From contig PANE01000005.1 in the NCBI GenBank assembly GCA_002708305.1, positions 107,086 through 146,586 on the forward strand: a stretch of 39,501 nucleotides of DNA, in the 5' to 3' direction. Positions 18,218 to 22,315 of this stretch are shown piece after piece. This DNA is from Rhodospirillaceae bacterium. Lineage in GTDB: Bacteria > Pseudomonadota > Alphaproteobacteria > Thalassobaculales > Thalassobaculaceae. The first letter of the stretch is position 1; each line of letters opens with the position of its first letter. A model generated the notes under the pieces. It was not told the DNA's origin, did not search any database, and saw only the letters and a program-made list of their open reading frames with translations. The position numbers and the translations under genes are program-made.

Positions 18218-19768
18218 ATGATGGAGCAAATAGAAATTCAAGAAATTACTGATAGTGTGCAAGCTCTACTGCAACAAAAAAAACTAGATGCAGCTATGGC
18301 AGTGTTAAAAAGAACTTACGAAGAAATTCCTAACCATCCTTTAATAACTCTCCAACTAGGTTACGTTTTATTTCTAAAAAACAACCTGGAGGAGGCTGAA
18401 TACTATCTAGAGATCACTTTGCAAAAAAGTCCTTTATTACCTGGCCTCATTGAAACACTAATACCAGTCTATCAAAATTTGGGGCAATCTCAAAAAGCAA
18501 CACAGTTATTGAAGAAGGCATTGATACGAGAGCCAGAAAAAATAAATTTATTATTGGAATACGCTGACTTATTATATTCTAAACAGTCTTTCGAACTGGC
18601 GTTAATTTGCTATAAAAAGGCATTAACTATTAATCCAACCGAGACAAGAGCTCAGGCAAATATTGCTGAATCCCTAGCGGAACTGCAGCGCCCCCATGAA
18701 GCCTTATCTTTCATAGAGATGGCGCTTTCACGAAACCCTAATTCAAAGCAACTAGCGCTTAATAGAGCATTAACCCTTTTGTCATTGAAAAAGTATAAAG
18801 AGGGATGGCATGCTTATGAAGCTAGACTTAGTGATGAAATCGATGAGGCGCCAAAACGCTTGATCAATATCCCCAGATGGACCAGTCAGTCATTAACCAA
18901 TAAAACTATTTTAGTTTGTAGCGAGCAGGGAGTTGGGGATGAGCTGCTTTTTTCTGCATACCTCCCAAAATTAGCTCCATTAGCCAAACGAATAATTGTG
19001 GAAACAGATCCTCGACTAGTACCACTCTTCTCCCGGTCATTTGAGAACTTAGAAATTCATCCTTATTCAAGAAGAGTGTCAGGCACCCGTGTTATCTATG
19101 ATTATCACTGGTTGAAACAATGCAGGGCCTACCCAGACTTATTTGTTGAGGCGGCAAGTCTCCCCTATTTTTTAAAAGAAACTCATAAAGAACCAGTGGC
19201 CATTACCCCTCATCTTAAAGACGATATAAACGCAACTAAAGTTTGGAAAAATAGATTAAAGAAAATATCAAATGGAAAACCACTTATTGGGCTTTTTTGG
19301 CGCAGTAGCCTTTATACAAATGATCGGAAACATTTTTATCCAACAATTGATCTCTGGCAACCTATATTATCTCTAAAAAACGTTAAATTTCTGAGTTTAC
19401 AATTCGATGATGATAGTCACGACATATCCCTAGTAAAGCAACTTTTTGGTGTAAACATTTTAAAGGTTGACGGTATAAATCTACGTAATGACTTTGATGA
19501 AATAGCTTCATTATGCAAGGGCTTAACAGGTGTTATTGCGCCCTCCACAACCACTGCGCATCTGTCTGGTTCCGTGGGGACAAAAACAATTGTTATAGAT
19601 AGGACGACAAATTGGTCACCAAAGATAAATAATTTTGATGCGGTTCTTCCTTCTATCCAACATATTTGGCCACCCCAGGTCGACGATTGGAACTGGGTTT
19701 TCACAAAGGCTCGGTCAGTAGCCCAAAGATGGATTCAAGATGAAAACCATAATCAAATAATACCATAA
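18218..19768 (+). CDS. TPR protein with glycosyltransferase-like C-terminal domain
   Basis: A 516-residue protein of two halves. Residues 1 to about 205 are tetratricopeptide repeats (at least five 34-residue units; for example the helix pairs ending QKSPLLPG, IREPEKIN, TINPTETR and SRNPNSKQ). Residues about 225-505 form a GT-B-like domain with the block VCSEQGVGDELLFSAYLPKL and a later APSTTTAHLSGSVGTKTIV segment, resembling the nucleotide-sugar site of GT9/GT41-type enzymes. Such TPR-glycosyltransferase proteins are common in alphaproteobacteria and are suspected protein or glycan modifiers, but substrate and donor are unknown. It is not obviously operonic with the tmRNA gene that follows. 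No signal peptide is seen. Confidence 0.75.
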   Translation: MMEQIEIQEITDSVQALLQQKKLDAAMAVLKRTYEEIPNHPLITLQLGYVLFLKNNLEEAEYYLEITLQKSPLLPGLIETLIPVYQNLGQSQKATQLLKKALIREPEKINLLLEYADLLYSKQSFELALICYKKALTINPTETRAQANIAESLAELQRPHEALSFIEMALSRNPNSKQLALNRALTLLSLKKYKEGWHAYEARLSDEIDEAPKRLINIPRWTSQSLTNKTILVCSEQGVGDELLFSAYLPKLAPLAKRIIVETDPRLVPLFSRSFENLEIHPYSRRVSGTRVIYDYHWLKQCRAYPDLFVEAASLPYFLKETHKEPVAITPHLKDDINATKVWKNRLKKISNGKPLIGLFWRSSLYTNDRKHFYPTIDLWQPILSLKNVKFLSLQFDDDSHDISLVKQLFGVNILKVDGINLRNDFDEIASLCKGLTGVIAPSTTTAHLSGSVGTKTIVIDRTTNWSPKINNFDAVLPSIQHIWPPQVDDWNWVFTKARSVAQRWIQDENHNQIIP

Positions 19769-19798
19769 TAGAGGGTTTTTAATTCTAAATTTTTTGCG

Positions 19799-19804
19799 TA
19801 TACT
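19799..19804 (+). promoter_or_regulatory. Likely -10 element of the ssrA promoter
   Basis: TATACT (5 of 6 consensus bases) lies about 7 bases before the hairpin that opens the tmRNA precursor. No convincing -35 is seen at the right distance; only an AT-rich stretch. Confidence 0.45.
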
Positions 19805-19810
19805 ATCTGG

Positions 19811-20070
19811 GCTAACTTGTTAGCTATGGTAATAAACGGATCGTGGAATAAGCGTAGCGGACCCGGGGGCAGTACCCGGCGCCTCCACCAAGTAGTGTCG
19901 ACACGCTAATGAGGGGGCGAAACAGGATCGACGCGCGTTGTAAAGACGTTACTTTTACTCGGCATGGTACCACCGTTATCGGACTAATAGAGTAGTTGCA
20001 AATGACAACTATGCGGAGGCACGCCTCGCTGCGTAAGCAGTCGGGTAGCCTTATTTAAGTCCATATGGCT
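19811..20070 (+). ncRNA. ssrA: Two-piece (circularly permuted) tmRNA
   Basis: Alphaproteobacterial permuted tmRNA. The acceptor piece comes first (about 19825-19890): it has the T-arm CCGGG-GGCAGTA-CCCGG and ends in CGCCTCCACCA. After a 22-nt intervening segment (19891-19912) the coding piece starts at 19913 with GGGGGCG, which pairs with CGCCTCC as the acceptor stem, followed by AAACAGGATCGAC, the D-like segment. The tag reading frame is 19998-20036 and encodes ANDNYAEARLAA; its UAA stop lies in a GUAA loop closed by CTGC/GCAG. TATGG (19825-19829) can pair with CCATA (20061-20065), holding the two mature pieces together and suggesting the ends. Outer boundaries are estimates. It rescues stalled ribosomes and tags their products for ClpXP. 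Confidence 0.93.
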
Positions 20071-20159
20071 CGCACCGTATGGCGGGGTTCGGGGTGCACC
20101 TGGCAACAGAAGCACCTCATATATTGATTAAACATAATGGAATTTTTATAGAGGTTGGC

Positions 20160-20654
20160 ATGTCAAACGGAAATTTTAAATATGACATGATGGTTGAAGA
20201 AGCGCTCAAAGGAGTTGTTGCTAAAGTCCTAAAACAGGCCGTCACGGAAGGATTGCCAGGTGAACATCACTTTTACATCACGTTTAAAACAAATCGTAGC
20301 GATGTCGATATACCTTTGTTTTTAAAAGAACGTTATTCAGATGAGATGACAATTGTGCTTGAACACCAATTCTGGGATTTAAAAATTCATGAAAATGAAT
20401 TTGAAGTAGCTCTCAGCTTTAATGATAAAAAAGAGCGGTTGCTGATTCCTTTCAATGCAATAACAGCATTCTCTGACCCCTCAGTAAAATTTGGATTGCA
20501 ATTTCAAGAAATCAAAGTCACAGAGTTAGAAAATATCGATAGCCGTAGCATCGAAAAAGATGGTTCTAAAAAACAAGAAAAAAATATAACTAGCCCTGGC
20601 GAAATTGTTTCCTTAGATAAATTTAGAAATAAGCATACAAACAAAAAACTGTGA
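20160..20654 (+). CDS. sspB: SspB, ClpXP adaptor for ssrA-tagged proteins
   Basis: A 164-residue alphaproteobacterial-type SspB, which binds the tmRNA tag and delivers tagged proteins to ClpXP. The N-terminal segment FKYDMMVEEALKGVVAKVL and the central block GEHHFYITFKTNRSDVDIP are family signatures. The C-terminal stretch GEIVSLDKFRNK after a variable charged linker is where the ClpX-binding peptide is expected. The frame is open upstream to an ATG at 20079, but that lies just after the tmRNA 3' end; the ATG at 20160 gives the family N-terminus and has GAGG five bases before it. It lies about 90 bp after ssrA with no terminator visible between them. Confidence 0.92.
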   Translation: MSNGNFKYDMMVEEALKGVVAKVLKQAVTEGLPGEHHFYITFKTNRSDVDIPLFLKERYSDEMTIVLEHQFWDLKIHENEFEVALSFNDKKERLLIPFNAITAFSDPSVKFGLQFQEIKVTELENIDSRSIEKDGSKKQEKNITSPGEIVSLDKFRNKHTNKKL

Positions 20655-20707
20655 TCTAAACATCATTAATATGAAATTTCTGAAAGTTGAAGGAGCTACT
20701 ACCTGTT

Positions 20708-22315
20708 ATGGATATGCTTTATAGTGAACTTTTCCCACTTGGATCAGACACTACTGATTATCGAAAAATAACGAGCGACTATGTCAGCAAAGACAAACGC
20801 GGCAGCAGCTCGTTTATCCGAGTTGAACCGGAAGCACTAACCTACTTGGCAGAAACAGCGTTTAAAGATATTTCGCATCTTTTGCGCCCAAGCCATCTAG
20901 CCCAATTGAGATTAATCCTCGAAGATAAAGATGCATCAAAAAATGACCAATTCGTGGCGATGGAGCTATTAAAGAATGCAAATATTGCGGCAGCTGGTGT
21001 TTTACCCATGTGTCAAGATACAGGGACAGCCATCGTCATGGCCAAAAAAGGCCAAAACATTTTCACAGGTTTTGATGATGAGGAAGCACTAGCAAAAGGT
21101 ATCTACAATACATACACAAACCATAATCTTCGTTATAGCCAGTTAGCTCCCCTTGATATGTTTGACGAACTAAACACTGGGACCAACCTCCCAGCGCAAA
21201 TAGAACTTTATGCAGTTCCAGGTGATAATTATAAATTTATGTTTGTTCAAAAAGGCGGCGGCTCTGCAAATAAGACTTTTTTGTATCAAGAATCTAAAGC
21301 AGTTCTTAACCCAACCGCGTTAAAGTCCTTCCTTGATGAGAAAATTAGAACATTAGGTACGGCCGCTTGTCCCCCTTACCATTTGGCAATAGTTATCGGC
21401 GGCACATCTGCTGAATTTAACCTTAAAACTGTCAAACTTGCTTCCACAAAGTATCTCGATAATTTGCCGACCACGGGCAGCAAAAGTGGCCATGCATATA
21501 GGGATTTGGAATGGGAACAGGTTATCCTTGATATGACACGAGAAATGGGTATTGGTGCGCAATTTGGCGGCAAGTATTATTGTCATGATGTTAGAGTAAT
21601 CCGACTACCAAGGCATGGCGCCTCGTGTCCCATAGGACTAGGAGTCTCATGCTCCGCAGACCGCCAAGCATTTGGAAAAATAACTGCTGATGGAATTTTT
21701 TTAGAACGCCTTGAGACTGATCCATCGAAATTTATTCCTGAGGTGCAAGATACTGAGGTTTCCGAAGAAGTAATACAGATAGACTTGAACCAACCAATGG
21801 ATCAGATTAGAGCTCAATTGAGCCAGTACCCTATTAAAACACGCGTAGAACTCTCAGGCCCTATGATTGTGGCGAGGGATATAGCGCACGCCAAATTAAA
21901 AGAACGATTGGATTCAGGGCACGGACTACCTGATTATATAAAAAATCATCCCATATATTATGCGGGTCCCGCAAAAACTCCAACTGGAATGGCATCTGGG
22001 TCTTTTGGGCCGACTACGGCAGGTCGAATGGACTCTTACGTCGACCCATTTATGGAAGCTGGGGCAAGTTTCATTACGTTAGCAAAAGGGAACCGATCAC
22101 CGGTTGTTCGCTCTGCTTGTAAAAAGTATGGAGGCTTTTATTTAGGTTCAATAGGAGGAGCGGCTGCCATTTTAGCTTTAAATAGCATAAAAAAGGTAGA
22201 AGTAGAGGAATATCCTGAGCTTGGCATGGAAGCTGTTTGGCGTATTGAAGTAGAGAAGTTTCCAGCCTTCATTGTGGTCGATGATAAAGGGAATGATTTT
22301 TTTAGCTCGATCTAA
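20708..22315 (+). CDS. Class I (iron-sulfur) fumarate hydratase
   Basis: A 535-residue class I fumarase (FumA/FumB type), catalysing fumarate to malate in the TCA cycle with an oxygen-sensitive [4Fe-4S] cluster. The N-terminal alpha-type region has the motif MCQDTGTA with C102; the other ligands are C221 (AACPPYH) and C315 ([11 protein letters not shown]), matching the spacing of the E. coli FumA cluster ligands. The C-terminal beta-type domain includes [19 protein letters not shown] and [17 protein letters not shown] lies 21 bp upstream in frame, but GGAG at 20692-20695 sits inside that extension, 12 nt before the ATG at 20708, which I prefer. It lies between sspB and apt, same strand. Confidence 0.95.

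Follow-up and report, generated by a model that had tools for sequence, protein, structure and literature searches.

A permuted tmRNA gene directly upstream of the gene for its tag adaptor SspB, an arrangement that recurs across the Alphaproteobacteria

Why should a tmRNA gene be followed immediately by the gene for an adaptor that recognizes the tag of this same tmRNA? The question is raised by a 39,501-nucleotide stretch of DNA from a Rhodospirillaceae bacterium (contig PANE01000005.1), the whole of which is referred to below as the window. The answer favored here is that ssrA and sspB would constitute a unit of two genes, a single strand encoding first a two-piece tmRNA and then the adaptor for the tag of this very tmRNA. 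Taken jointly, the identity of both genes, their role and the existence of a class-wide ssrA-sspB unit are given a probability of about 0.8, a figure from which co-transcription of the two genes is excluded. The window locus is of an ordinary kind that is widely conserved among alphaproteobacteria, and its parts belong to known families in conserved synteny; the useful additions are the class-wide extent of this synteny and the co-occurrence of the tag with its adaptor.

Regarding the tmRNA gene, the covariance model RF01849 matches strongly and over its full length (model positions 1-355 of 355) at 19772-20121 on the forward strand, with 284 bits against a gathering score of 50 (E = 5.7e-83), and this match is the only one at E <= 0.001 in the whole assembly. 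ARAGORN, an independent method, also returns a permuted tmRNA, at 19798-20127 and with the tag ANDNYAEARLAA. The permuted tmRNA gene of the original prediction is thus borne out, its start being moved from 19811 to 19772, where the match begins further upstream and takes in a promoter-like stretch. A candidate -10 element, TATACT, can be read from the sequence at 19799-19804 (+), where the Rfam consensus is UAUAUU; this element is absent from the promoter-scan output for the window. The acceptor piece ends at 19880-19890 (+), on the evidence of sequence and model structure, with the 3' half of the acceptor stem, an A and the encoded CCA (19888-19890), which lies ahead of the coding piece and so gives the permuted order. 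The coding piece starts with the 5' half of the stem (19913-19919, +), which pairs with 19880-19886 over 7 bp, with a G-U at the third pair; a G3-U70 pair in the acceptor stem is the alanine identity element. The tag reading frame and its stop codon occupy 19998-20036 (+), according to both ARAGORN and the translation. Compared with the two-piece tmRNAs of Caulobacter and Sinorhizobium meliloti (RF01849), that of the window is alike in the whole-model match, the acceptor-before-coding order and the tag ending in LAA, and no structural difference is seen, only ordinary sequence divergence. In S. meliloti, the tmRNA transcript is reported to be processed into two pieces in vivo (PMC2873474). A match to snoR31 at 19320-19408 was rejected as due to chance (E = 0.64; its 24.7 bits fall short of the cut-off of 44).

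The open reading frame at 20160-20654 (+) encodes, as originally predicted, an SspB of the alphaproteobacterial type, a family of ClpXP adaptors; the protein has 164 amino acids. It matches PF04386 with 145.2 bits against a cut-off of 27 (E = 2.1e-42; profile positions 2-131 of 156), as well as all three alphaproteobacterial SspB sequences 2nys, 2qas, and 2qaz from the PDB. Near its C-terminus, VSLDKFR lines up with the corresponding motif of 14 relatives (alignment A1), with which it shares the form VSLDxFR, L152, F155, and R156 being invariant in all 15 sequences. With respect to other alphaproteobacterial SspB proteins, a few residues are found beyond the FRxK end, likewise in one of the aligned relatives (L009). 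A motif of the VSLDKFR type is assumed here to be the part of SspB that docks on ClpX. Together, the matches of both genes uphold the view that the tag, its degron, and the adaptor have neighboring coding sequences.

Whether this adjacency is confined to one lineage, a point left open by the original prediction, was addressed in 192 genomes sampled evenly across the class, each at least 90% complete; the adjacency proved to be class-wide. RF01849 is found in 184 of these genomes and PF04386 in 177. Both searches were run on all 192, and the places of the genes were taken from the best 150 matches for each, which gives both places in 131 genomes, that of tmRNA only in 19, that of SspB only in 19 and neither in 23. 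If the genes count as adjacent when fewer than 350 nt separate the tmRNA from the start of an SspB match downstream on its strand, ssrA is directly upstream of sspB in 97 of the 131 genomes with both places. The same order and strand, but with 395-7984 nt between the genes, are found in 18 further genomes, and the genes are apart in the other 16, of which 10 have them on different contigs (one with the tmRNA at a contig end) and one has them 7 kb away from each other on opposite strands. In 116 genomes, the two genes lie no more than 10 kb apart, and ssrA comes first and on the same strand in 115 of these. These distance tallies leave out the 19 genomes with only an SspB place and the 23 with neither. 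As for the 19 lower-scoring genomes with only a tmRNA place, 6 have no SspB match and 13 have SspB, adjacent in 12 of the 13; in G160, adjacency was not found within the stretch fetched. Such class-wide recurrence means that the adjacency is not peculiar to the window genome, and it refutes a chance adjacency special to this genome, in favor of which nothing was counted and which is given virtually no credence. One permuted tmRNA gene (L260, in G085) measures 540 nt according to ARAGORN, as against roughly 310-400 nt in most others.

The same picture emerges from named sspB loci. Among the best-scoring 80 of 563, a sample that favors close relatives, ARAGORN places a tmRNA at most 450 nt upstream in 63, including loci from Rhizobium, Bradyrhizobium, Bosea, Azospirillum, Magnetospirillum, Sneathiella, and Kordiimonas. 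In the rest of these 80, the tmRNA lies beyond 450 nt in 2 and none is returned by ARAGORN in 15; in the latter, a tmRNA-end signature can be found within 230 nt upstream in 6, farther away in 4 and nowhere in 5. The negative gaps at L045 and L082, where the sspB start would overlap the tmRNA, are an artefact of the ARAGORN end and the match start, and both loci have an in-frame GTG after the tmRNA tail. Outside the class, no tmRNA was seen by ARAGORN alone, run with no positive control, up to 5 kb on either side of sspB in 20 loci from other classes of the phylum (taken from 101 genomes with a match; 3 loci are cut at a contig end). In E. coli, ssrA neighbors smpB and sspB follows sspA; the two arrangements are alike in having a gene of the tagging system beside a partner and differ in that ssrA of the window directly precedes sspB. 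An unlinked case within the class is Pelagibacter, where the neighbors listed on the two sides of the tmRNA are thyX and a gene of COG4696 (PMC2704228). No description of the ssrA-sspB adjacency was encountered in the literature searched; an earlier statement may exist in Lessner et al. (2007) or in the paper on the structure of Caulobacter SspB.

How the two products might work together can be outlined from known systems. In the E. coli system, the N-terminal box of the tag is the part read by SspB. By analogy, the tmRNA of the window would add an A followed by ANDNYAEARLAA to stalled chains, SspB would bind the N-terminal part of the resulting tag peptide AANDNYAEARLAA, and it would dock on ClpX via its C-terminal VSLDKFR motif, with ClpX engaging the LAA end. 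Beforehand, RNase P and tRNase Z would probably separate the acceptor piece of the precursor from its coding piece, a route of processing proposed in one review. That the ssrA tag binds SspB and that ClpX reads the ALAA end is described in a source (PMC3985003) that extends this to alphaproteobacteria only with a "perhaps"; an SsrA/SspB pathway in Caulobacter is mentioned in another (PMC8119881).

With regard to the tag itself, its sequence goes with the presence of the adaptor. The tag starts with ANDN in 117 of 130 SspB-bearing genomes versus 1 of 9 without SspB (Fisher p = 6e-7, uncorrected for kinship) and contains [AC]NxN in 127 of 130 versus 2 of 9 (likewise uncorrected). These counts omit genomes for which ARAGORN gave no tag, namely 14 of those fetched with SspB and 2 without (L282, L277), and one of the counted tags, GRDDGRAAAPV, may be a misreading. 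The 9 tags without SspB come from 7 families and from a total of 15 genomes, in which the absence of SspB was confirmed by a second, alphaproteobacterial profile that did find two SspB-bearing genomes included in the search; 3 of the 9 belong to one-piece tmRNAs, and when only permuted tmRNA genes are kept, ANDN is found in 1 of 6 genomes without SspB. The exceptions are the 13 of 130 SspB-bearing genomes with non-ANDN tags and one genome (G051) with ANDN and no SspB. Such co-occurrence fits SspB as the reader of the tag, a role given in two sources (PMC3985003, PMC8138137), and, together with family membership, it suggests that the SspB of the window would bind the tag of the window. Long or odd tags, several with an internal ANxN, were observed at nine loci (L123, L126, L131, L179, L180, L191, L244, L264, and L269), all with SspB and, except for L244, with the two genes adjacent. 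A one-piece tmRNA (RF00023), searched in 12 genomes only, was found in three genomes that are placed in the class and have no detectable SspB (L283, L284, and L285, from G094, G176, and G191); their tags are ADDNFEYAMAA, ANNDFEYKLAA, and AKAKSNVIAFRPRTSAGAYAMAA, respectively.

The genes around the pair bear on a rival explanation, according to which ssrA and sspB are neighbors by inherited gene order only, sspB having a promoter in the gap or at the end of ssrA and being regulated separately. The window block upstream of sspB is taken to comprise miaA, serB, degP, hflC, hflK, mrp, dfrA, and thyA (names in this neighborhood come from translations of the open reading frames, except those obtained by a profile scan), and many sspB loci share miaA, serB, degP, hflC, and hflK, at times with mrp, dfrA, and thyA. 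In the best 80 of 563 named loci, relatives of thyA and dfrA are present in 44 and of hflK in 36 (raw counts over loci that include short contigs), a recurrent block that agrees with inherited order, as do the 16 of 131 genomes in which the two genes are apart. The constancy of order and strand in 115 of the 116 linked genomes argues against order alone. Mobile elements are not favored as the source of the 0.4-8 kb gaps in the 18 genomes with distant genes: on reading the longest open reading frame in each of these gaps, no mobile-element gene was recognized, some of the frames looking non-coding. Downstream, a fumarate hydratase gene (20687-22315, +; PF05681 and PF05683) comes next after sspB in the window, its limits being those of the longest open reading frame, with a possible ATG at 20708; ssrA, sspB, fumarase, and a phosphoribosyltransferase lie close together on one strand. 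In the same 80 loci, by the same raw counts, a fumarase relative is found in 22, and in 17 of these it begins no more than 0.75 kb past the point where the sspB match starts. Between thyA and ssrA, the window also has a gene for a TPR-repeat protein (18218-19768), which looks like a lineage-specific insertion into the old block because only 2 of the best 80 of 563 named loci have a tblastn match to it, one of these on the opposite strand.

The spacer bears on whether the two genes share a transcript. While the gene next to ssrA is sspB, as predicted, the gap of about 90 bp that had been given does not hold: 38 nt lie between the end of the covariance model (20121) and the sspB ATG (20160), and 123 nt between the tag stop codon and this ATG. 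The 38 nt (20122-20159, +) comprise the spacer and the sspB leader, with a Shine-Dalgarno-like AGAGG at 20150-20154. No terminator-like site was found in the window spacer (0.9 expected by chance) and no convincing sspB promoter, the best candidate there having p = 0.43. In the genus of the window, for which five genomes were taken and three used, two giving no tmRNA match, CAACAGAA and the start codon are 47-48 nt apart and the sequence in between drifts, except near the Shine-Dalgarno sequence. Over the 97 adjacent genomes, 8 to 267 nt separate the end of the tmRNA model from the start codon, with at most 45 nt in 29. Terminator-like sites are found in only 3 of the 97 gaps versus 9 of 97 equally long stretches that follow sspB, which speaks against separate regulation of merely inherited neighbors; so does the lack of a promoter excess in the gaps of 8-45 nt (1 of 29 such gaps has a promoter-like site with p <= 0.05, by an insensitive scan). 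The scan detects ssrA promoter regions at p <= 0.05 in only 33 of 97 genomes, that of the window itself scoring p = 0.7, and a missing sspB promoter is therefore weak evidence. In favor of the rival, 18 of the 68 gaps longer than 45 nt have a promoter-like site at p <= 0.05, where about 3 are expected, so that some lineages probably possess a separate promoter for sspB. Pairs of same-genus genomes with longer gaps, for example G159/G050 (loci L186 and L134) and G130/G215 (loci L172 and L216), have near-identical promoter-like sites ahead of sspB, and these too agree with separate regulation. Inheritance of gene order as the sole cause is thus a serious contender, held at somewhat under even odds.

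For the two-gene unit, the shortness of its gap and the lack there of a terminator-like site and of a convincing promoter make it slightly favored, as a reading of sequence signals, that the ssrA transcript of the window runs on into sspB; more generally, we infer co-transcription for the genomes with short gaps, the window included, whereas in some others sspB would have a promoter of its own, alone or in addition. Were the transcript to reach sspB, the supply of adaptor would be tied to the production of tmRNA. It can be proposed, tentatively and with the balance tilted somewhat to the contrary, that throughout the class sspB is the ancestral 3' cistron of the tmRNA precursor: one transcript would then yield both a stable non-coding RNA and the message for the adaptor of its tag, with the dose of adaptor fixed to the tagging capacity. 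As part of this proposal, the unit may go with permuted tmRNA, because the three one-piece genomes (out of 12 searched) lack a detectable SspB. If sspB does come from the tmRNA precursor, tag and tag reader would be made in a fixed ratio, matching tagging to disposal. The synteny and the co-occurrence offer annotators a check for both genes, and the coupling is directly testable in common laboratory alphaproteobacteria.

A last alternative concerns translation, in that the CCUC tail of the tmRNA could pair with the sspB Shine-Dalgarno sequence in the uncut precursor and regulate it. The window does have ACCUC at the tmRNA end and GAGGU in the leader, with a pairing energy of -9.2 kcal/mol versus -4.2 on average with 12 leaders that come from other genomes and are close in GC content. 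Over 96 loci, however, the native pairing is stronger than the median of the swapped ones in 47 and the means are -7.1 (native) and -7.2 (swapped), i.e., there is no class-wide signal, and the predicted fold of 20060-20200 keeps the tail inside a tmRNA hairpin; tail pairing is thus considered very improbable. In the same minimum-energy fold, a single prediction with no control, part of the Shine-Dalgarno stretch (20151-20156) is paired with tmRNA bases 20085-20090, and in the window alone the sspB Shine-Dalgarno sequence may be masked by these other bases of the tmRNA.
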